A stretch of DNA of 64,000 nucleotides from Phenylobacterium sp. Root700 (lineage in GTDB: Bacteria; Pseudomonadota; Alphaproteobacteria; Caulobacterales; Caulobacteraceae), in NCBI RefSeq assembly GCF_001429025.1, contig NZ_LMHT01000022.1, positions 1 to 64,000 on the forward strand. The letters run 5' to 3'. Position numbers and translations under genes: made by a program. Under the pieces are notes generated by a model. The model saw only the letters and a program-made list of their open reading frames with translations. It searched no databases and was not told the DNA's origin. Positions 1-10,889 of the stretch are shown piece after piece. Every line of letters begins with the position of its first letter. Position 1 is the stretch's first letter.

Positions 1-46
1 CCTAGGCTTCATCCACCTCGCCGCCACACTCATCTGGATGCGCTGA
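1..46 (+). pseudogene. Possible transposase C-terminal tail (5' cut by window)
   Basis: Reading from base 2, an open frame encodes LGFIHLAATLIWMR and stops at TGA 44-46. This hydrophobic ending followed by a Trp-Met-Arg terminus resembles the C-terminus of IS5-family transposases as I remember them. Only 14 residues are visible and no terminal inverted repeat can be identified, so it could equally be the end of another gene. It lies convergent to the alkaline phosphatase gene. Whether it is an intact gene or a remnant cannot be told from this window. Confidence 0.35.
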
Positions 47-59
47 ATGTCGATTCCAC

Positions 60-1466
60 CTAGTCCGCAGGCAGGCCCAAGGCCTCGCGCATGACCTGGA
101 ACACGGCCGGGTGATCCATCAGACCGTGAACCCGCTCGGCGCCGGGGCCGGTGGCGTAGGTCGCGACGTCCTCGCCGGTGTGAGCGGCGCTGTAGAGCGG
201 CACGGCGGCGAAGTTGCGCAGGTCGGGATCGGCGGTGTCGACGTCGGTGAGGTCGGGGCGAAGCTCGCCGACCGGCGGGGCGCCGGGGCCGCTGGCGTAC
301 ATCAGGATCGGGATCGCCTTGCCGTCCATGGCCTTGGCCGGGTCGTCGTCATTGCCGGGCAACAGGCCCAGGATCGAGGTGTCGCGCATCCCGCCATTGA
401 TCGTCAGGCCATGGCTGTGGTCGGCCGTGACGATGATCAAGGTGTCCTTCGGATCGGTCATGGCCACAGCGGCGGCCACCGCCTTGGAGAGCTCGACCGT
501 CTCGGTCAGGGCTTCGTGGGCCAGGCTGAGGTGGTGGGCCTTGTCGATCAGGGCGCCTTCGACCATCAGGAAATAGCCCTGCTTGCTCTGCGACAGGATC
601 TCGATGGCCTTGACGGTCATGTCGGTCAGGCGCGGTGCGTCGGTTTGCGTGGCTCGGCGGGCGTTCTCACGCATCATGTTGCCGGGCGCGAACAGGCCGA
701 GCAGACGCTTGGTCCCCTTGGGCACGGCGGCCATCGCCGTGCCGGTCTCGACATAGGCGCCGCCTGAGGCCCGCCACTCGGCGGTCAGGTCGCGGCCGTC
801 CAGACGCTTGCCCGTACCTTCGCTGGGCGTAAAGGCGGCCTGGCCGCCGCCCAGCATGACGTCGAGTTGCAGGGCCTTGGGGCCGTCCAGCATTTGCCGG
901 GCGATGTCCTTGCAGCCTTGCGCGACCGCTTCAGGCGGCAGGTCGGCGTCCGACTGCCATTGGCGCGAGGGGGTGTGGGCGTAGAGCGAGGCCGGGGTGG
1001 CGTCGGTGATCGCGGCCGTGGAGACCACGCCGGTGGCCAGACCCTTCTTGCGCGCCATCTCCGCCAGAGTTGGAACCGACGCACCCTTGACCGAGGCGCA
1101 GTCGCCGCGCCGCACCTTGTCGTCGACGCCGAGCGCGCCGTTCAAGGTCCGGTGGCCGGTGAGGATGGCCGAGGCCCCGGCGGCGGAGTCCGTCACCAGC
1201 CCGTCGGCCGAATAGGTCTGGCTGAGGGCCAGGTGAGGGAAGGTCTCGAAGGACAGGCGATTGGAGGCGCCATCCTTGCCCCGCTGCTGACCGTCATAGA
1301 TCCGCGCCGCGGTGAGGGTCGCGACCCCCATGCCGTCGCCGATGAACAAAATTACGTTCCGGGGGCGCTCGGCGGCGGAGGCCGGAGCCCCCGCCGCGCA
1401 GATCACGCCCACCAGGGCCAGCGCGCTAGAAGCGCGCCGACACCCTGACAAAATACTCTCGCCCAT
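60..1466 (-). CDS. Exported alkaline phosphatase
   Basis: A periplasmic phosphomonoesterase of the PhoA superfamily, 468 aa. A signal peptide covers about residues 1-31, ending near ASAAE. FIGDGMG (41-47) provides a metal-ligand Asp, TDSAAGA (92-98) carries the nucleophile Ser94, and further ligands lie in EGALIDKAHH, TADHSHG and HTGED. The length fits the family. An in-frame ATG exists further upstream at 1538, but the 1466 start places a proper signal peptide at the N-terminus. That start lies inside the end of the TonB receptor gene (41-bp overlap in another frame), so the two are probably co-transcribed and translationally coupled. With the upstream receptor and nuclease it suggests phosphate release from organic phosphates. 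Confidence 0.9.
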   Translation of the reverse strand: MGESILSGCRRASSALALVGVICAAGAPASAAERPRNVILFIGDGMGVATLTAARIYDGQQRGKDGASNRLSFETFPHLALSQTYSADGLVTDSAAGASAILTGHRTLNGALGVDDKVRRGDCASVKGASVPTLAEMARKKGLATGVVSTAAITDATPASLYAHTPSRQWQSDADLPPEAVAQGCKDIARQMLDGPKALQLDVMLGGGQAAFTPSEGTGKRLDGRDLTAEWRASGGAYVETGTAMAAVPKGTKRLLGLFAPGNMMRENARRATQTDAPRLTDMTVKAIEILSQSKQGYFLMVEGALIDKAHHLSLAHEALTETVELSKAVAAAVAMTDPKDTLIIVTADHSHGLTINGGMRDTSILGLLPGNDDDPAKAMDGKAIPILMYASGPGAPPVGELRPDLTDVDTADPDLRNFAAVPLYSAAHTGEDVATYATGPGAERVHGLMDHPAVFQVMREALGLPAD

Positions 1467-3699
1467 CGACACCAAGTCCGCCTGCCTCCGTATAGGGTCG
1501 GCCGTCGTTCGAACCGACGACCTCGTCGGGGTACTCATCGGTCGCGTTGATCACACCCGCATGAAGGCTGAGCGTTTTATTGATCTCGACGGACGCGGTG
1601 AGGTCCAAGGTGATCTCGTCGCCGAACACCTGGGTCGGTCCGAGCGGCGAGGAACGGTATTTTCCAAAGCGCACGACGTCGGCCAGCAGGCTCCAGCGAC
1701 CCATGTCGAGACCCGCGTTCAGCGTGACCTTGTTGCGCGGCTGGGCGTCGGTGAGGACGCCGATCGAGGTCGGGCCGAGCAGGGCCAGCGCCGGCAGCAC
1801 CGGGTTCACGGCCAGCGATTTCACGTCGTTGTCGTAGGCGGCGTAGGCCAGGGTCAGGGTCAGCCGGCCGTCGGTGGCGATCGGCGTCGACCAGTTGACC
1901 GCGGCCTCCCAGCCTTCGGTGCGGGTGTCGGCGGCGTTGGTGAAGAACCGGACCTGCGAGGCGTTGGTGATGCCGCGTGCCGCCAGGATGGCGGTGACGG
2001 CCGGCCCCGACAGCGATTCCGACAGCGCGATGCGGTCATCGATCTCGATGCGGAAGACGTCGGCGGTGAAGCTCAGCCGAGGGATCGGCGTCAGCACCAC
2101 GCCTGCCGAGATGTTGCGCGACTTCTCGGGCTTGAGGTCGGAGGCGCCCAGCGCGCGGGCGACCGGATCGCTGACCGCGAAGGTGCCGACATTGACCAGT
2201 TGGCCGGCCGAGAGCTGGCTGGTCACGGTGGCGAAGTGCTGCTGTTGCAGGGCCGGGGCGCGGAAGCCGGTGCTGGCGGTGGCGCGAACGGCCAGCCAGT
2301 CATTCGTGCGCCAGAACAGCGAGGCCTTGCCGGTCGTTCGGTCGCCAAAGTCGCTATAGTTCTCGAACCGGGCGGCGAGCCCGAGGTCGAGCCCCTTCAC
2401 CGGCGAGATTTCCCCGTCGATGAAGGCGCTGTATGCGGTGCGGTCGACATTGACCGGGGACGGCGGATTGTAGCCGGGGAAGCCTTGCGCGCCCGCGCCC
2501 TGGTACGAGGCGGGCTCGCCGGGGACGATCTTGAAGCTCTCGAAGCGGTGCTCAAGGCCCGCCGCAAGGTTGGCCCCGGCCAGCACGTCTTCGAACCGGC
2601 GGTTGACCGTCAGGTTCACCAGGTTCTGGCCGTAGCGGGTGCCGCCGGATTCGAACCGCCTGGGGCTGGCCGCGCCGAGCGAGGTGTTGGCGCTGTTGGA
2701 GACGGCGAAGTCTCCGCGGTTGAAGCCGACCGTGTCGCTGAGGTCCCAGGACCAGCCGGCGGCCTCACCACGCACCCCGACCGCGCCGCCGAAGTCGATC
2801 ATGTCGAACTCGACCAGGGGCAGGAAGCCGAGCGGATAGAGCGCCGGCGCGACATTGGGCAGGCGGAACAGCGGCGCGCTTTCCGAGTAGCGGCGGTCGA
2901 AGGTGGCGAAGCCGTAGAGCGTGGCGCCGGGTAGCGGGACCTCGGCGTTGGCGGCGAGGTTCAGATCGAGCGATTCCGGATCGCCGTGGCGCTGGGTGAC
3001 GCGGCCGACCCGCGGATCGACGCGGGCGGAGTTGGTGAAGTTGCGATAGCGGGCCTCGGCGGCCAGGGTGAGGAAGCCGTCCTCGCCGAGTTTGAAGCCC
3101 TGGCGCGCGGTTCCGATGGCGGTCTCGCCGTCGCCGTCCTCGGTGGCGCCGATCTGGAACGTGCCGAGCCCGCCCTCGGCGTCGTCGCGCAGGACGATGT
3201 TGATCACCCCGGCGATGGCGTCGGAGCCATACTGGGCCGCGGCGCCGTCACGCAGCACCTCGACCCGGGCGATGGCCGAGGCCGGGATGGTGTTGAAGTC
3301 GATGGGCACGGTGCCGCGCCCGACATTGTTGTTGAAGTTCAGCACCGAGGACGAGTGCCGGCGACGGCCGTTCACCAGCACCAGCACCTGGTCGGGGCTC
3401 AGGCCCCGCAGACTGGCCGAGCGGGTGTTGGCGGCCGAGGGGCCGGTGGCCGAACGGGGGAAGTTGAAGGACGGCGAGACGAACTGCATGACCTTCGACA
3501 GGTCGTTGAAGCCGCGAGCCGCCAGTTCCTCGCCGGTGAACACGTCGACGGGCGATGAGGTCTCGGTGGCGAGCCGGGGCGCGCCGCGCGAGCCGACCAC
3601 CACCAGTTCGCCGAGCTCTTCGACCGGCGGAGCTTCGGCCCAAGCCTGCCCCGCCATCAGGGCCAGGCCCGCGGCTCCGCATAGAATGTTCCGACGCAT
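1426..3699 (-). CDS. TonB-dependent outer-membrane receptor
   Basis: A 757-aa ligand-gated outer-membrane beta-barrel. It has a signal peptide (residues 1-22, cleaved near AWA-EA), a TonB-box-like stretch ELGELVVVGSRG, a plug domain with LVLVNGRRR, IARVEVLRDGAAAQYGSDA and GVINIVLR, then a long barrel ending in the aromatic beta-signal YFVRVSARF. The substrate cannot be read from sequence. Its position between an S1/P1 nuclease and an alkaline phosphatase suggests uptake linked to nucleic acid or organophosphate use. A good Shine-Dalgarno sequence (AGGGGGA) precedes the ATG. A palindrome at 3780-3796, shared with the nuclease promoter, lies 81 bp upstream. Confidence 0.93.
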   Translation of the reverse strand: MRRNILCGAAGLALMAGQAWAEAPPVEELGELVVVGSRGAPRLATETSSPVDVFTGEELAARGFNDLSKVMQFVSPSFNFPRSATGPSAANTRSASLRGLSPDQVLVLVNGRRRHSSSVLNFNNNVGRGTVPIDFNTIPASAIARVEVLRDGAAAQYGSDAIAGVINIVLRDDAEGGLGTFQIGATEDGDGETAIGTARQGFKLGEDGFLTLAAEARYRNFTNSARVDPRVGRVTQRHGDPESLDLNLAANAEVPLPGATLYGFATFDRRYSESAPLFRLPNVAPALYPLGFLPLVEFDMIDFGGAVGVRGEAAGWSWDLSDTVGFNRGDFAVSNSANTSLGAASPRRFESGGTRYGQNLVNLTVNRRFEDVLAGANLAAGLEHRFESFKIVPGEPASYQGAGAQGFPGYNPPSPVNVDRTAYSAFIDGEISPVKGLDLGLAARFENYSDFGDRTTGKASLFWRTNDWLAVRATASTGFRAPALQQQHFATVTSQLSAGQLVNVGTFAVSDPVARALGASDLKPEKSRNISAGVVLTPIPRLSFTADVFRIEIDDRIALSESLSGPAVTAILAARGITNASQVRFFTNAADTRTEGWEAAVNWSTPIATDGRLTLTLAYAAYDNDVKSLAVNPVLPALALLGPTSIGVLTDAQPRNKVTLNAGLDMGRWSLLADVVRFGKYRSSPLGPTQVFGDEITLDLTASVEINKTLSLHAGVINATDEYPDEVVGSNDGRPYTEAGGLGVDGREYFVRVSARF

Positions 3700-3779
3700 G
3701 CCGATCCCCCTTCAAGAAACTTGCAGCCGGCTTCTGGCCGGGGGCGTGGGCAGGGTCGAACGCAAAGGGCGCGACGGGC

Positions 3780-3796
3780 GTTGCGTGACGCGCAAC
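3780..3796. promoter_or_regulatory. Putative operator GTTGCG-N5-CGCAAC (receptor)
   Basis: A 17-bp palindrome 81 bp upstream of the receptor ATG. CGCAAAGG lies at 3761-3768, exactly 11 bp from the palindrome. The same composite with identical spacing is found at 4824-4859, before the nuclease gene. The conserved spacing and the similar distance to both start codons make this a candidate binding site for a common regulator. The regulator is unknown, and I could not match the motif to a PhoB box. Confidence 0.5.
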
Positions 3797-3837
3797 ATCC
3801 GACATGGATGTGTCACGCGCCCGCCGCGCGCCCGGCG

Positions 3838-4764
3838 TCAGTCAGCGGCGACCAGGGCCTGGGCGATGTCGGCCAGGCGATAGCCGGCCAGGGTCAGGCG
3901 GCGCTCAGCCTGCGCCGTCACGTCGGCGACATAGGCCCCCGGAAGCTCAGGAGCCTTGTCGGCGCTGTCGGCCGAGACTAGATCGGCTCGATAGGCGAGG
4001 GGCCCCGCCAGGCGGTAGCTCTCGCCCGCCCAGGCGCTGAAGGCTGTGGCCACGGCGGGGCTGTGGCCCAGTTCCGGGAAGGAGGCGCGCGGATAGCGCG
4101 TGGTCAGGTCGCGCGCGCGGGCCAGGGCCTGCTCCGGCTCGCCGTCGCGATTGACCGAGTCGTCCCAGAACCAGTGCAGGCTGATCGGCTCGCCGGTCTT
4201 GGGATCGCGGACATGCTGCAGTCCGCCGCCCCGATCTCCGGTCGGGAAACGGCCGGAGAACAGCTGGGCGGTGTGCAGCGGCTGGTGAATGTCGCCAGCG
4301 ATGTGGAACACCCAGGCGACGGCCATGGCGCGCTCGGAGATCGGGGCCTTGGGGTCCGAGGCGACCTTCACGTTGAGGGCGAAGGCTTCGTTGGCCGCGC
4401 CCGCGCTGTCGGTGGCCGGGGTCTTGGGCGGCGGGCTGCGCGGGTCGATGACCGGCCGCAGGGCGTGGTGCCAGGTCGGGTGGTCCTGGGCGCCGCCGCG
4501 CACGTCGTCGGGCCAGCGCGCCAGCTCCATGAACAGTCGCCGGGCGCGCTCGTCCCCGGTCGCCCGGCCGACGGCGACTTCAAACGGCCCGCGGTCGGGG
4601 TGTTGAGCGGCGATGGAGAGCAGCTTCTGCAAGGCCTTGGGATCGCGGGCGGCGAGTTCGTCATAGGCGATGGCGGCCGTGACCATGTGGCCCGGCCGGG
4701 TCCAGGCCTGGGCCGGAGCGTGCAGGGTGAGCGCCAGGGCGGTGGCGAGAAGGGGCAGGCGCAT
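3838..4764 (-). CDS. S1/P1-type secreted nuclease
   Basis: A zinc-dependent single-strand nuclease/3'-nucleotidase, 308 aa. Residues 1-20 are a signal peptide ending in AQA. The mature protein starts at Trp21 (WTRPGH), as in S1/P1 nucleases, where the N-terminal Trp ligates zinc. Later ligand motifs are HIAGDIHQPLH and HWFWDD. It would act in the periplasm or outside the cell to make nucleotides for the phosphatase encoded downstream. The 138-bp gap to the receptor gene contains its own operator-like site, so the two may be separate transcripts under one regulator. Confidence 0.88.
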   Translation of the reverse strand: MRLPLLATALALTLHAPAQAWTRPGHMVTAAIAYDELAARDPKALQKLLSIAAQHPDRGPFEVAVGRATGDERARRLFMELARWPDDVRGGAQDHPTWHHALRPVIDPRSPPPKTPATDSAGAANEAFALNVKVASDPKAPISERAMAVAWVFHIAGDIHQPLHTAQLFSGRFPTGDRGGGLQHVRDPKTGEPISLHWFWDDSVNRDGEPEQALARARDLTTRYPRASFPELGHSPAVATAFSAWAGESYRLAGPLAYRADLVSADSADKAPELPGAYVADVTAQAERRLTLAGYRLADIAQALVAAD

Positions 4765-4842
4765 GATCGGGCTTCCATTGAGTGGCAGGAAACCTTGGTA
4801 GCAGCCGGGCTATCGCAGGCTGTCGCAAAGGACCGAACGCCA

Positions 4843-4859
4843 GTTGCGCGGCGCGCAAC
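4843..4859. promoter_or_regulatory. Putative operator GTTGCG-N5-CGCAAC (nuclease)
   Basis: The second copy of the palindrome seen at 3780-3796, here 79 bp upstream of the nuclease ATG and 63 bp upstream of the divergent AtuA start. CGCAAAGG at 4824-4831 is again separated by 11 bp. It could control the nuclease, the divergent gene or both. Confidence 0.5.
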
Positions 4860-4921
4860 GTGCTAGGCGCCCGCTACGGCAGGGGCCTAGCTTTGCGGCG
4901 CGTAAGTTCAGCGAGGCGGCT

Positions 4922-6730
4922 ATGGTCAAGATTGTCAGGATCGGTGGAGCCGGCGGCTTCCTGGGGGACTCCTCGGTGGCCGCGCCGCAACTGCTGAAGG
5001 GCGGCCGGCTCGACTACATGATCCTCGACTATCTGGCCGAGGCGACGATGTCGTCGCTGGGTCAACTGAAGGCGGCGCGGCCGGATCAGGGCTATGCCCG
5101 TGATTTCACCGAGTGGGTCTGGAAGGACAACCTTCAGGAGCTGAAGGCGCAGGGGGTGAAGATCGTCACCAATGCGGGCGGGCTCAACCCGCACGCCTGT
5201 CGCGCCCGGATGGAGGAACTGGCCGCGGCCGCAGGGCTCAGCTTCAAGATCGCCGTGGTCGAGGGCGACGATCTGATGGGCCGGCTGGATGATCTGGCGG
5301 CGCGCGGTCTCACCGAGATGTTCACCGACGCGGCCTTCCCCGATCCCAAGCGGGTCTTCACCGCCAACGCCTATTTCGGCGGGAGGCCCATCGCCGAGGC
5401 CCTGGCGGCCGGAGCCGACATGGTGATCACCGGGCGGGTGGTCGATAGCGCCCTGGCCTTGGGCCCGCTGATGCACGAGTTCGACTGGACGGAGGCCGAC
5501 CACGATCTGCTGTCGGCCGGCTCGCTGGCGGGGCATGTGATCGAGTGCGGCGCGCAGGCCACCGGCGGGTTGTTCACCGACTGGGAGGACGTGTCCGACT
5601 GGGCCCACATCGGCTATCCGGTGATCGAGTGCCAGGCCGATGGGACCTTCGTGGTCACCAAGCCGCCCGGCACCGGCGGGCTGGTGTCGCCGGCGGCGGT
5701 GGCCGAACAGATCCTCTATGAGGTCGGTGACCCGCAAGGCTACGCCCTGCCGGACGTGGTGTGCGATTTCACGCAGGTGAAGGTCGAGGCCGTGGGCGAG
5801 GACCGCGTGCGGGTCAGCGGCGCCAAGGGCTATCCGCCGAGCGGCGCCTACAAGGTCTGCATCACCTTCGAGGATGGCTATCGGTTCATCGGCGCCATGC
5901 CGGTCGTCGGGCGCGACGCCGTCCGCAAGGCAGAGCGTCAGGCGCAGGCGGTGCTGGAACGCCTGGGGGAGATGCTGCGGGACCGCAACCTGCCGCCGCT
6001 GCGCGATCAACGGATCGAATTGCTGGGCGCCGAGACGTCCTATGGCGCGCAGGCCCGGCCTGAAGCCCGTGCGGCGCGCGAAGTCGTGGCGCGGGTTGGG
6101 GCTGAGCACGAAAGCGCCCAGGCGCTGGGGCTGTTGGCGCGGGAGTTCGCCTCGCCGACTACGTCGATGAGCGTGGGATCGACCGGATGGTTCGGCGGCG
6201 CGCCGACCATCACCCCGGTCGCGCGGGTGTTCTCGGTCTTGCTGCCCAGGGTCGAAGTCGACGCCGTGGTGAGCCTTGGCGCCGAACGCCGTGAAATCCG
6301 CGCCGCGCCGCCCGCGGCGCTGTTCGATCCTGGCATGGTGGTGCGGCCGGTTGTTCCAGAGCCCCCGAGCACGGAGGGCGAACTTGTCCTGACGCCGCTG
6401 ATCGACCTGGCCTGGGCGCGGTCGGGCGACAAGGGCGACGCCTTCAATATCGGGGTGATCGCCCGGCGGCCTGAATACCTGCCCTGGATCCGGCGTGGCC
6501 TGAGGCCCGATGCTGTCCAGGCGTTCTTCGCCCACGAGTTCGAGGGAGCGAAGACGCCCAAGGTGCTTTGCTATGAGCTGCCGGGTTTGCAGGCGATCAA
6601 CCTGCATTGCATCCAGGCCTTGGGCGGGGGCCAGTTCTCGAGCCTGCGCCTGGATCCCTTGGCGAAGGGCAAAGCGCAGCAGCTGCTCGACATGGAGATC
6701 GAGATTCCGGCGGGCTTGCTGGGCGGGTAG
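4922..6730 (+). CDS. AtuA family protein (DUF1446 plus AtuA-like C-terminal domain)
   Basis: A 602-aa protein resembling AtuA of acyclic terpene utilisation, a family of unclear biochemistry often found near acyl-CoA carboxylases. The N-terminal ~450 residues match the DUF1446 type, with GGAGGFLGDS near the start, TNAGGLNPHACR and GADMVITGRVVDSA. The last ~105 residues (from LIDLAWARSGDKGDAFNIG) match the small ferredoxin-fold domain that in some organisms is a separate protein. The ATG at 4922 is chosen because homology begins there; upstream codons lie in the promoter region. No terpene genes are nearby, so its pathway here is unknown. Confidence 0.85.
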   Translation: MVKIVRIGGAGGFLGDSSVAAPQLLKGGRLDYMILDYLAEATMSSLGQLKAARPDQGYARDFTEWVWKDNLQELKAQGVKIVTNAGGLNPHACRARMEELAAAAGLSFKIAVVEGDDLMGRLDDLAARGLTEMFTDAAFPDPKRVFTANAYFGGRPIAEALAAGADMVITGRVVDSALALGPLMHEFDWTEADHDLLSAGSLAGHVIECGAQATGGLFTDWEDVSDWAHIGYPVIECQADGTFVVTKPPGTGGLVSPAAVAEQILYEVGDPQGYALPDVVCDFTQVKVEAVGEDRVRVSGAKGYPPSGAYKVCITFEDGYRFIGAMPVVGRDAVRKAERQAQAVLERLGEMLRDRNLPPLRDQRIELLGAETSYGAQARPEARAAREVVARVGAEHESAQALGLLAREFASPTTSMSVGSTGWFGGAPTITPVARVFSVLLPRVEVDAVVSLGAERREIRAAPPAALFDPGMVVRPVVPEPPSTEGELVLTPLIDLAWARSGDKGDAFNIGVIARRPEYLPWIRRGLRPDAVQAFFAHEFEGAKTPKVLCYELPGLQAINLHCIQALGGGQFSSLRLDPLAKGKAQQLLDMEIEIPAGLLGG

Positions 6731-6756: not shown

Positions 6757-6793
6757 CCTCGTCATCCTAGGCACAAGGCCTAGGATGACGAGG
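6757..6793. repeat. Palindromic repeat, possible terminator
   Basis: A perfect 16-bp inverted repeat (6757-6772 and 6778-6793) with a 5-base loop, containing GTCATCCTAGG on one arm and its complement on the other. It sits between the converging AtuA and helix-hairpin-helix genes. It shares the CGTCATCC/GGATGACG outer arms with the element at 14897-14938, so it looks like a member of a dispersed repeat family that may also end transcription. Confidence 0.75.
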
Positions 6794-6834
6794 CGAGAGG
6801 CGAGAGGCGAGAGGCGAGAGGCGAGAGGTGACAG
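6793..6834. repeat. Heptamer tandem repeat (GCGAGAG)
   Basis: Five exact tandem copies of GCGAGAG (6793-6827) are followed by a degenerate sixth (GTGACAG). The tract abuts the palindrome at 6757-6793 and ends just before the stop codon of the minus-strand gene at 6844. Such short arrays vary in copy number through replication slippage. Confidence 0.85.
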
Positions 6835-6843
6835 GTGGGAGCC

Positions 6844-7117: not shown

Positions 7118-8653
7118 CTAACCCAACTGTAGCTTGAGCCGCAGCGCCTGGGCCAGGGTCTGGGCGCGCTTGGCGGTCTGTTCGCCGAGCAGCATGTCGG
7201 ACCAGCCGTCCTGGGCGCGTAGGATCAGGCGCTCGCCTTCGATCGCCAGGGTGCAGTGGCCGAGCAGGCCCGCGTTGCGGCCCGACAGGTCGCAGCCGAG
7301 ACGGATGGCCGAGCCCAGCGCTCGGGCGCGTTGGCGGCGCTCGACCGACAACACCTTGGAGACCGTGCCAGGTTCAGGCGTCGCGGGGGCCGAGGAGTGG
7401 CGGGCGAAGGCCGCGCTGGCCAGGAAGGCGCGCTCGGGGTGGTTCATGCCGGCGATGGGGGCCCGCAACACCTGTTCGAAGGCCAGCTCGCCGCGATGGT
7501 CGGGGTGAAGTCGCGCGCCGAGATCGGCCAGTCGGCAGGCGGCGGCGATGAGCACCGGCTCGCGGGCGCCGAAGACCGGGGGCAGGCGACTGAAGGCCGG
7601 ATCGAGCCAGGCATGCAGCGCCGTGCCGAGATCGTTGGAGAGCCCGCGCACGGTCGTCAGGGCTTCGCAGCCCTCGATCAGCGGGTCCTGCGCGGCCTCT
7701 TCGGGCGCCATGGCTTCCAGCAGTAGGCCTTCGCGCAGGCCATAGGCGGAGATCACGATGCGCTCGATGCCCAGGCGCTCGATTAGGGCGTCCAGCACCA
7801 GGGCCGAATAGGGCAGGGTGTCGAAGCGCTTCTTTGACAGCCCCTGCATCCGCTCCAGCGAGCCCTTGGACTGGCGGGCGACAAAACGGGCGACGTCGAC
7901 GGCGTCGGAGCGGTTCATCTCGTACTGGTGAGCGACGCGCAGCGGGTAGTCGGCCATCTCCATGTGCAGGAGCGCCAGGTTGCGCCAGGCGCCGCCAACG
8001 GCGTGGAACTCGCGCGTGCGGAACCGCAGGCCGGCGTTTTCAATGCGGCCCTCGATCACCTTGCGCATCTTGTCGACGTCGAGCGGTTTGGGCGCTCCCA
8101 GGGCGAACGGGCCGAGGGGCAGGGTGACGCCGTCACGCGGCGCGCCCGAATCGAGGTGCACCAGTTCGAGGCTGGAACCGCCCATGTCGCCGACCACGCC
8201 GGTGGCGTCGGGCTGACCGGCCAGGACGCCGAGCGCGGCGTAGCGGGCTTCCTCGACGCCCGAGAGGACGCGCAGGCGCAGGCCGGTCTCCATCTCCACG
8301 CGGGCGAGGAAGGCCGGACCGTCAGAGGCCTCACGCACGGCGGCGGTGGCGACGGCGAAGATGTCGGCGGGAGCCCAGCCGCTGAGCGCGGCGCGGAACC
8401 GGCGCAGGGCGACCAGGGCTGTCTCGATGCCGGCCGGCGACAGGCGACCAGTGGCCGGCAGGTCGCGGCCGAGGCCGGCCAGGGCCTTTTCGTTGAAGAC
8501 CGTCCAGATCGCGCGGCCTTCCAGCCGGTAGATCACCAGGCGCACGGAGTTGGAGCCGACGTCGATGACGGCGGTCTGACGGGAACCTAGGTCCTTGAAA
8601 GCTCCAGGACCGGGATCGGGGGAAAGGGCCCGGCTATCCGCGCGGGGCCACAT
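7118..8653 (-). CDS. ppx: Exopolyphosphatase / Ppx-GppA phosphatase
   Basis: A 511-aa member of the ASKHA-fold Ppx/GppA family, which removes phosphate from polyphosphate ends or hydrolyses pppGpp. [16 protein letters not shown] near the N-terminus is the first phosphate loop, [12 protein letters not shown] and [13 protein letters not shown] follow, and [13 protein letters not shown] is the second nucleotide/phosphate loop. The C-terminal half is the helical extension seen in long Ppx proteins. The start codon lies 20 bp inside ppk, giving a coupled kinase/phosphatase pair. Ppx versus GppA specificity cannot be decided from the sequence, but the ppk linkage favours polyphosphate. Confidence 0.9.
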
Positions 8654-10853
8654 GATCGATCGCGCGCGGCATGTCCTTCACCTTCTGCCCCCGGCCCGAC
8701 AGGCTGGGATTGGTCATGAAGTACTCGTGCGCGGAGAAAGCGCCCGGGTGATCCCATGATGGATCGCGGGTATAGCGGCCGTCCGCGTCGAGCGTCCAGC
8801 TTTGCGCTTCGTCCTTGAGATTGGCCACCATGATCTGTTGCAGGACCTGCTGGTGGACAGTGGGGTTCTCGACGGGAGTGAGGCACTCCACGCGGCGGTC
8901 GAGATTGCGCGGCATCCAGTCGGCCGACGAGATGAAGACGCGGTTTTCCGCCGAGGGCATGGCCGCGCCGTTGCCGAAGGCGACGATGCGGGCGTGCTCC
9001 AGGAACCGGCCGACGATCGACTTGACCCGGATGTTCTCCGAGAGGCCGGGCACGCCGGGGCGCAGGCAGCAGATGCCGCGGATGACGAGGTCGATGGAGA
9101 CGCCGGCCTGGCTGGCCTCGTAGAGGGCGTCGATGATGACCGGATCGACCAGCGAGTTCAGCTTGGCCCAGATGGCGGCGGGCTTGCCGTCATGGGCGCT
9201 CTGCACCTCACGCATGATGTAGGTCAGCAGGTCGGCCTTCATGGTCAGCGGCGAGGGCGACAGCTTCTCCAGGCCGTCGGGGCGCGCATAGCCGGTAATG
9301 AAGTTGAAGAGGCGGGCGCTGTCGCGGCCCATGGCCGGGTCGCAGGTGAACAGCGACAGGTCGGTGTAGATCCGCGCGGTGACGGGGTGGTAGTTGCCGG
9401 TCCCGAAGTGGCAGTAGGTGCGAAGGGTGTCGCCCTCCTTGCGGACCACCATCGAGAGCTTGGCGTGGGTCTTGTACTCGACGAAGCCGAAGACGACGTG
9501 GACGCCGGCGCGCTCGAGGTCGCGCGCCCATTTCAGGTTCGCTTCCTCGTCGAAGCGGGCCTTGATCTCGACCAGGGCGGTGACGTTCTTGCCGTTCTCG
9601 GCCGCCTCGATCAGGGCGGCGATGATCGGGCTGTCGGACGAGGTCCGATAGAGGGTCTGCTTGATCGCCAGGACGTTGGGGTCGCGGGCCGCCTGACGCA
9701 GGAACTGGACCACCACGTCGAAGCTCTCGAACGGGTGGTGGACCAGGATGTCCTTGTCGCGGATGGCCGCGAAGCAGTCGCCGCCATGGTCGCGGATCCG
9801 CTCGGGGAAGCGGGCCTCGAACGGTTTGAATTTCAGGTCGGGCCGGTTGGCGGGGATCAGCTGTGACAGCTCGTCCAGGCCCAGCAGGCCGTCGATGAGG
9901 ATGATGTCGTCGTCCTTGGCGTGCAGGTTCTCGACGATGAAGGTGCGCAGTTCGGCCGACATCTCGGCCTCGATCTCGACGCGGACCACAGAGCCGAGGC
10001 GGCGCTGCTTGAGCCGCAACTCGAACTCGCGCACCAGGTCCTCGGCCTCTTCCTCGATCTCCACGTCGCTGTCGCGGATCAGGCGGAAGACGCCTTTGGC
10101 CTCGATCTCGCTGTCGGGGAACAGGTGGTCGAGGAACAGGGACGTCAGGCTTTCCAGGCTGATGAACCGACGATCTGGAAACTTTCGGCGGCTAGGCGCG
10201 GCCGGCAGCTCCCAGAACCGGGCGACCTGGGCCGGAATCGGCACCAGGGCGTAGAGCGGGCGGCCGTCCGACACCCGCTTCAGCTTCAGCACGATGCAAA
10301 AGGCGAGGTTCGGAATGAACGGGAACGGGTGAGCCGGGTCGATGGCCAGCGGTGTCAGCACCGGGAAGATCCGGGTGATGAAGGTGGCTTCCAGCGCCTG
10401 TTTCTCGGCCGCGGTGACTTGCTCCTCGCCGATCACGATGAGGCCTTCGCCGGCGAGCTCGTCGCGCAGCCGGCGCCATTGACCCTGCTGGTCGGCCATC
10501 AGGTTGGCGGCCTCGGCGTTGACGCGCACCAGCTGCTCGACGGGGGTGAGGCCGTCCTGGGACACGACCCGGAGGTCTTCGCGGGCCTGGGCCTTCAGGC
10601 CGGCCACCCGGACCATGTAGAATTCGTCGAGGTTGTTGGCCGAGATCGACAGGAACCGCAGGCGCTCCAGCAGCGGATGGCGCGGGTTCTTGCTCTCGTC
10701 CAGCACGCGCTCATTGAAGGCGAGCCAGGAGATTTCCCGGTTGAAGAAGCGTTCGGGCGAGCCGACCAGCTCAGAGTCGAGCGCCAGGGGCGTCTCGCCG
10801 GCGGGCCGCGGACCAGGGGCGGCGTAGGTCATGATTTCAGCGTCCGTAGGCAT
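8634..10853 (-). CDS. ppk: Polyphosphate kinase 1
   Basis: Makes inorganic polyphosphate reversibly from ATP; 739 aa, normal for PPK1. The N-domain begins with [17 protein letters not shown], followed by [13 protein letters not shown]. The catalytic domains include [15 protein letters not shown] and [10 protein letters not shown], whose first His is expected to be phosphorylated, and end with [13 protein letters not shown] 10853 is preferred; TTG 10871 and ATG 10832 are also in frame. The gap to hdaA is 36 bp, so hdaA-ppk-ppx is probably one transcript, linking replication control and polyphosphate metabolism. Confidence 0.95.
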
Positions 10854-10889
10854 AGGTTGGTTCTGACCCAACCCGAAATGTACCGCAAG

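Follow-up and report, generated by a model that had tools for sequence, protein, structure and literature searches.

Why should the gene of an S1/P1 nuclease and the gene of a TonB-dependent receptor carry the same composite sequence in front of them? In the DNA considered here (a stretch of 64,000 nucleotides from Phenylobacterium sp. Root700, hereafter the window), each of these genes is preceded by a palindrome and, 11 bp away, a short block that recurs in both copies. The initial annotation suggested that a single regulator governs a nuclease-receptor-phosphatase scavenging regulon through these sites. Having compared the locus with its relatives in other genomes, we think it very probable that each composite is the two-dyad operator of a GcvA-like LysR-type regulator, which would switch on the nuclease gene and a receptor-phosphatase operon.

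The two sites in the window

Rechecking the window coordinates placed the two copies at 3761-3796 and 4824-4859, just where the initial annotation had them. The genes of the cluster lie on the minus strand, so that in gene direction the order is GTTGCG-N5-CGCAAC, N11, and then CCTTTGCG. The distances given earlier, 81 bp to the receptor ATG and 79 bp to the nuclease ATG, are right when measured from the near edge of the palindrome (3780 to 3699 and 4843 to 4764); from the far edge they are 97 and 95 bp. The description as a palindrome plus a separate block needs revision, however: both parts are present, but the octamer CGCAAAGG, at 3761-3768 and 4824-4831, makes up most of the right arm and part of the spacer of a second dyad in each copy (Table 1).

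The phosphatase ORF and the 3' end of the receptor ORF overlap, which makes co-transcription of the two likely; no separate operator for the phosphatase is present in the window. A scavenging function for the regulon may be presumed from its gene content.

Table 1. Genes, operator dyads and presumed promoters of the cluster, in window coordinates
Feature	Position	Strand	Details	Basis
Alkaline phosphatase gene	60..1538	-	492-aa ORF, PF00245; true start probably within it	
TonB-dependent receptor gene	1426..3699	-	757 aa, PF07715 and PF00593	
S1/P1 nuclease gene	3838..4764	-	308 aa, PF02265	
Receptor operator, dyad 1 (putative recognition site)	3780..3796	-	GTTGCG-CGTCA-CGCAAC; presumed centre about -63	sequence
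Receptor operator, dyad 2 (putative activation site)	3759..3775	-	GTCGCG-CCCTT-TGCGTT; offset exactly 21 bp	
Nuclease operator, dyad 1	4843..4859	-	GTTGCG-CGCCG-CGCAAC	
Nuclease operator, dyad 2	4822..4838	-	GTTCGG-TCCTT-TGCGAC	
Presumed receptor promoter	3732..3760	-	-35-like TTCGAC at 3755-3760, 17-18 bp, -10-like hexamer ending at about 3732	presumed from conservation
Presumed nuclease promoter	4795..4823	-	ACAGCC at 4818-4823, 17 bp, TACCAA at 4795-4800	presumed

Anatomy of the proposed operator

We aligned 23 sites from 16 genomes, with no gaps except one base in two sites, and the alignment resolves into two dyads rather than a palindrome and an octamer. Dyad 1 has the strong consensus GTTGC-N7-GCAAY (T-N11-A). 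It is followed by 4 bp (3 in G319 and G326), a degenerate left arm taking the forms GTTGC, GTTCG, GTCGC and variants, 6 bp, and then YGCG, mostly with TT. This second dyad is degenerate and weaker, and starts 21 bp downstream of the first (20 bp in G319 and G326); on the alignment, CGCAAAGG reads as its right arm and not as a separate octamer. Positions T2 T3 G4, G13 C14 A15 A16, T23 and G34 C35 G36 are invariant. The T-N11-A pair within the short dyad (T3 and A15) is thus invariant in 23 of 23 sites, which were partly chosen by that pattern; since many of the sites were picked out by pattern or by eye, part of the core's invariance follows from how they were chosen. Protein orthology, and not the pattern, led to seven of the receptor sites (G026, G040, G006, G361, G319, G326 and G742).

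LysR-type operators have been described as a T-N11-A recognition site near -65 together with a second site at the -35 region (in the promoters treated in PMC8407307 and PMC11739112). The two-dyad layout matches these operators. The initial annotation had recognised no named operator; by its dyad spacing, the architecture corresponds to the LysR-type layout.

Frequency and specificity of the sites

The exact composite occurs twice in the 4.58-Mb genome (4,575,332 bp) that contains the window, both times in this cluster, against a chance expectation of about 2e-5 copies on both strands; it is not a motif scattered at random sites over the genome. The exact palindrome alone occurs three times, where about 0.54 copies are expected at the window's G+C, and the third copy is inside a TonB-receptor coding sequence. 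With up to two mismatches the palindrome is not rare (8 found in the window, 5.7 expected).

A scan of 390 genomes of the family for the composite with up to two mismatches gave 21 sites, and a reversed control pattern gave 16, so that two-mismatch matches taken alone are worthless. We kept 11 sites: six with zero or one mismatch, and five with two mismatches before a receptor. The other ten (L007-L009, L059-L062, L065, L067 and L069), all with two mismatches, were set aside as chance matches; in nine cases the match overlaps a called ORF, and the 2-3 kb stretches examined for the ten contain no homologue of the receptor or the nuclease. One of the ten, at L069 1501-1536 (G376), was dropped with no receptor near; the same stretch holds a LysR-type gene whose product is 32% identical to the regulator described below. 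A match in Neomegalonema (L071), one of seven from a contig search, was likewise dropped, being inside what by eye is an apparent chemoreceptor coding sequence.

A model built on all 23 aligned sites (R1) gave 22 matches up to E 4.3e-4 over 23 genomes, all of them aligned sites, a result that is circular for the training sites; the next match came only at 0.036, and the eight genomes without the regulator clade had best E-values of 0.036-0.37. A 24th site, absent from the training set, was picked up by R1 ahead of the phosphoesterase gene in strain CCUG 60055 (L070:5729-5771). The cleaner test is a second model (R2), built on 12 sites, all from outside Phenylobacterium. In 101 Phenylobacterium genomes its top seven matches are operators of the set (two each in G069 and the window's own genome, G000, and one each in G089, G026 and G040), and the window sites take ranks 2 and 4 (E 7.0e-7 and 2.4e-6). 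R2 recovered neither of the G090 sites at E <= 0.2 (the filters of that scan were stricter), and the two sites of G006, at E 0.0021 and 0.0028, stand among matches in called coding ORFs at 0.0016-0.0088. The matches in G043, G057, G032 and G033, being within called ORFs, were rejected as chance; three of them resemble one conserved gene.

Predicted target genes and their conservation

The receptor is found at 54-100% identity in seven of the 101 Phenylobacterium genomes, its own included, and the site is upstream in all seven; the arrangement is therefore conserved before orthologous genes. Taken more broadly, receptor orthologues preceded by the site are found in Phenylobacterium, Caulobacter and two more genera of the family, and also in one genome from another part of the class. 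Sorted by the gene that follows, the 24 sites divide into 16 before a receptor, three before an S1/P1 nuclease and five before a calcineurin-like phosphoesterase. The nuclease sites belong to the own genome, a Phenylobacterium sp. MAG (G069) and G090, where the nuclease precedes the receptor and has an operator copy to itself. The order is reversed in G026, G040 and G089: there the nuclease comes directly after the receptor, and a second site was not found.

The five phosphoesterase sites, in a Phenylobacterium deserti MAG (G006), G287, Caulobacter vibrioides OR37 (G373), Caulobacter sp. AP07 (G315) and CCUG 60055, belong to a second type of locus (L093, L094, L095, L070 and L091). Here the regulator is divergent from the phosphoesterase, operators precede both phosphoesterase and receptor, and in most cases an MFS transporter and the receptor are nearby. 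Among all operator loci, an MFS transporter was identified by Pfam in G006, G373 and G742 and by eye in others. No nuclease was seen in these loci (by BLAST in G006, G315, G373 and G287, by eye in CCUG 60055), and the nuclease is thus not universal among operator loci. An adenosine deaminase gene (PF00962) follows the receptor in Caulobacter sp. AP07, and a PhoD-like phosphatase adjoins the regulator in G361. The locus elsewhere in the class (L133, G742) has regulator, operator and receptor together, along with an MFS transporter and an M20-family hydrolase, which suggests either an old system or horizontal transfer. Within the window itself, a few kb from the cluster, Ppx/GppA-like and polyphosphate-kinase-like genes (7118-10871, by eye) form another phosphorus-related pair, and a short tandem repeat of about 8 bp (GAGAGGCG, by eye) follows an AtuA-like gene at 6785-6836.

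Paralogues of the receptor differ in this respect. We sampled 23 receptor homologues of 40-45% identity (L036-L058, those with loci given), and none has the full operator when R1 is run over the whole loci at E <= 5. Within 330 bp of the called start, TTGC-N7-GCAA with at most one mismatch occurs in one of the 23 (L050), which has no second dyad at the right offset. The whole-locus scan is the better test, as several starts were called too far upstream. In many of the Phenylobacterium loci of this sample, the paralogue adjoins a ribosomal-protein-L9-like gene (by eye).

A linked LysR-type regulator

In 15 of the 16 genomes with sites, the contig of the receptor gene also carries a LysR-type gene, at a distance of 8 to about 3,100 bp. 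LysR-type regulators are often divergent from their targets, and in G006, G287, G373, G315, G261 and CCUG 60055 the regulator is divergent from its neighbour with the operator between them. All seven regulators scanned have the Pfam domains HTH_1 (PF00126) and LysR_substrate (PF03466); the own-genome protein (L085:105-1019, minus strand) scores 56.4 and 99.1 bits, compared with cut-offs of 26.6 and 28.

That protein, G000:C35:105-1019 (-), is most likely the regulator in the window's own genome, as judged by orthology. It is 90% identical to its orthologue in the sister genome G069 and is encoded about 100 bp from a contig edge, on a contig other than the window's. In G069 the regulator gene directly follows the receptor gene, in convergent orientation, so contigs C22 and C35 may adjoin; the window starts at a contig edge beside the phosphatase. 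The first bases of the window (1-60) read GFIHLAATLIWMR-stop in one frame, by eye the end of an IS5-like transposase, and CTGAATGTCGAT is common to the window's contig end and the end of C35 (G000:C35:1-110, L085). The break in the assembly between the phosphatase and the regulator may therefore be due to an insertion element.

Regulator and site occur together across genomes. At E <= 1e-35 the regulator is found in eight of 101 Phenylobacterium genomes, namely the seven with the operator and G001, whose match has 34% identity, falls outside the clade and is without the recognition-helix signature; neither receptor nor operator was found near it. In Caulobacter it is found in five of 75 genomes at the same threshold, and the operator precedes the receptor in all five. 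A tree places the 15 linked regulators in one clade (support 100/99) apart from 29 others, and the recognition-helix stretch SPxA[FL]SRR[IVL]Q is present in 15 of the 15 and in none of the 29. The CCUG 60055 regulator (L070), from outside the tree set, has the same stretch in its sequence.

A class-wide search gave matches at E <= 1e-50 in 84 of 385 genomes, mostly general GcvA-like proteins. From a longer list of its matches we took 30 loci, our own included, and of the other 29 only G742 falls in the clade. Surroundings of 14-16 kb were read for six of the class-wide loci, and flanks of up to 1.5 kb per side were scanned for 28 (L105-L132). R1 gave three weak matches in these flanks, of 14.7 bits and less, and the best (L105) is within the 3' end of the called regulator ORF.

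Site and regulator persist jointly while the flanking genes change. Taken together, the comparisons make the regulator-operator pair well supported in silico, and they support the single regulator for nuclease and receptor suggested at the outset, although site and regulator could also occur together through common inheritance of a single locus, with no regulatory link. Two further sequences were noted near the regulator gene: a GTGACA...TGTCA inverted repeat before it in G000 (L085, upstream of 1019) and G069 (L086, upstream of 6058), and a TGTCACAGTTTGAGGAC stretch between regulator and phosphoesterase in L070 and L095. Either is possibly a second control element.

Presumed promoters and mode of action

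Directly after dyad 2, abutting it, is a presumed -35 hexamer, which reads TTCGAC before five of the seven Phenylobacterium receptors. A GATAAG-like or TAGGAT-like sequence lies 17-18 bp past that hexamer in several sites. The -10-like hexamer of the receptor is weak in the window, and at that position G026, G040, G361 and G089 have GATAAG or GATAAC; for the nuclease, the hexamer at equal spacing is TACGAA in G069 and TAGGAT in G090. A consensus scan recognised no E. coli-type promoter at 3600-5000, so the promoter positions in Table 1 are presumed ones. If these hexamers are the -35 and -10 elements, dyad 1 would be centred at about -63 and dyad 2 at about -42. The presumed receptor leader contains, at 3724-3740, a hairpin that resembles a terminator and has a T-rich tail; 0.4 would be expected by chance.

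We infer from this arrangement that the regulator binds the sites and activates rather than represses. A tetramer would anchor on dyad 1, the putative T-N11-A recognition site, and reach the weaker dyad 2, two helical turns downstream. With its inducer bound, the regulator would then recruit RNA polymerase and so turn on the nuclease gene and the receptor-phosphatase operon.

Alternative explanations

Nuclease and phosphatase might instead belong to a global metal- or phosphate-supply regulon, and we considered whether the sites could be bound by Zur or PhoB. Alkaline phosphatases and S1/P1 nucleases are zinc enzymes, and phosphatases are targets of PhoB, whose box consists of TGTCA direct repeats about 11 bp apart. 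According to PMC4176598, TonB-dependent receptors are under Zur in Caulobacter crescentus and the Zur motif is GTTA-N5-TAAC. Neither that motif nor TGTCA-N6-TGTCA is present at 3600-4950 with up to one mismatch, in agreement with the initial annotation, which had not seen a PhoB box. Moreover, the exact composite is confined to this locus and not repeated at many supply genes, and its distribution tracks a local LysR-type gene present in eight of 101 Phenylobacterium genomes, whereas the sites of a global regulator would be expected more widely. Control by Zur or PhoB is therefore very unlikely. An RNA element, either the terminator of the upstream gene or a leader hairpin, is hardly credible: GTTGCG-N5-CGCAAC could pair as a hairpin of six pairs, and the receptor copy in the window lies 42 bp past the nuclease stop codon, but a terminator scan found nothing at either copy (its single match is the hairpin nearer the receptor start), sites also stand downstream of unrelated genes and between divergent genes, and a terminator would have no need of a second dyad 20-21 bp away.

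A protein of another family (of the TetR, MarR, LacI or response-regulator type) might also bind here, with the LysR gene as a travelling bystander. Many families bind inverted repeats, and linkage and co-occurrence alone do not show binding. Against this, the T-N11-A spacing, the weaker dyad two turns downstream and the presumed upstream position fit LysR-type regulators specifically, as does the divergent layout of regulator and target seen in six genomes. The constancy of site and regulator amid changing neighbours, and the recognition-helix residues common to all the linked regulators, also argue against a bystander, and we consider this explanation unlikely. The GcvA-like LysR-type regulator remains the reading that we prefer.

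Possible function and significance

The theme that recurs among the linked genes is phosphodiester and phosphomonoester hydrolysis combined with uptake. Since one branch has a nuclease and a member of the other an adenosine deaminase, our best guess is that substrate and inducer are products of nucleic acids; more loosely, the nuclease and phosphatase might release nucleosides, nucleotides or oligonucleotides that serve both as inducer and as imported substrate. It is a reasonable possibility, which we put forward tentatively, that the locus is a nucleic-acid utilisation system with a logic like that of polysaccharide utilisation loci: hydrolases, a dedicated TonB-dependent receptor and a LysR-type regulator sensing the product. 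The presumably exported nuclease and phosphatase, with adenosine deaminase in Caulobacter sp. AP07, would cut nucleic acids, the receptor would import nucleosides or oligonucleotides, and the regulator, sensing the product, would switch the set on through the two-dyad operator.

TonB-dependent receptors number in the dozens in freshwater and soil Caulobacterales, and for most of them no substrate is known. We know of no TonB-dependent receptor dedicated to nucleic-acid products, and found none in titles and abstract starts of the open-licence papers searched; if the proposal is true, these products would be a new substrate class for such receptors. The matched regulator, operator and enzyme set gives one receptor a testable substrate class, and would likely supply an inducible promoter as well. 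With its 24 predicted sites, this compact and conserved LysR-type system also offers a testing ground for rules of spacing and activation.

Comparison with known systems

In operator layout the closest comparisons are the BsrA (PMC8407307) and YhaJ (PMC11739112) promoters, which have a T-N11-A site near -65 and a weaker site in the -35 region, with 50-60 bp covered; the dyads here, at a presumed -63 and -42, would correspond to these. The present sites differ in their specific GTTGC-N7-GCAAY sequence and in a 21-bp offset (20 bp in two sites) that is kept across genera, and the predicted targets are hydrolases of nucleic acids or phosphodiesters and a receptor of the outer membrane.

The nearest functional parallel that we found is E. 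coli PunR (YdhB), which activates punC, the gene for a purine nucleoside transporter (PMC8376909). Like the regulator proposed here, it is a LysR-type activator divergent from a transporter gene, with a very small regulon and a connection to purine nucleoside use that includes adenosine deaminase. Its operator is different: the 23-bp consensus TsttwTCAAwAwwwTTGaaGGCA has TCAA...TTGA arms and not GTTGC-N7-GCAAY, and inspection of the 23 aligned sites found no such arms. The target of PunR is the punC transporter, and neither a TonB-dependent receptor nor a nuclease is mentioned in the part of PMC8376909 cited here.

Caulobacter Zur resembles the present system in having TonB-dependent receptors as targets (PMC4176598), and both Zur and PhoB differ from it in their recognition sequences, which as noted are absent here. 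By protein sequence the closest named NCBIfam subfamily is GcvA (PRK11139), and the closest solved chain for an alignment of five of our regulators is 8y6u (E 4e-47). The own-genome protein scores 163.2 bits against PRK11139, and this and two other members (182.4 and 216.3 bits) do not reach the cut-off of 288 bits; the regulator is thus GcvA-like but under the curated GcvA cut-off, and its predicted targets are unrelated to glycine cleavage. We found no earlier report of this operator, regulator or regulon in the open-licence papers searched. The kind of system is a known one, while the regulator, its operator and its set of targets appear to be new.
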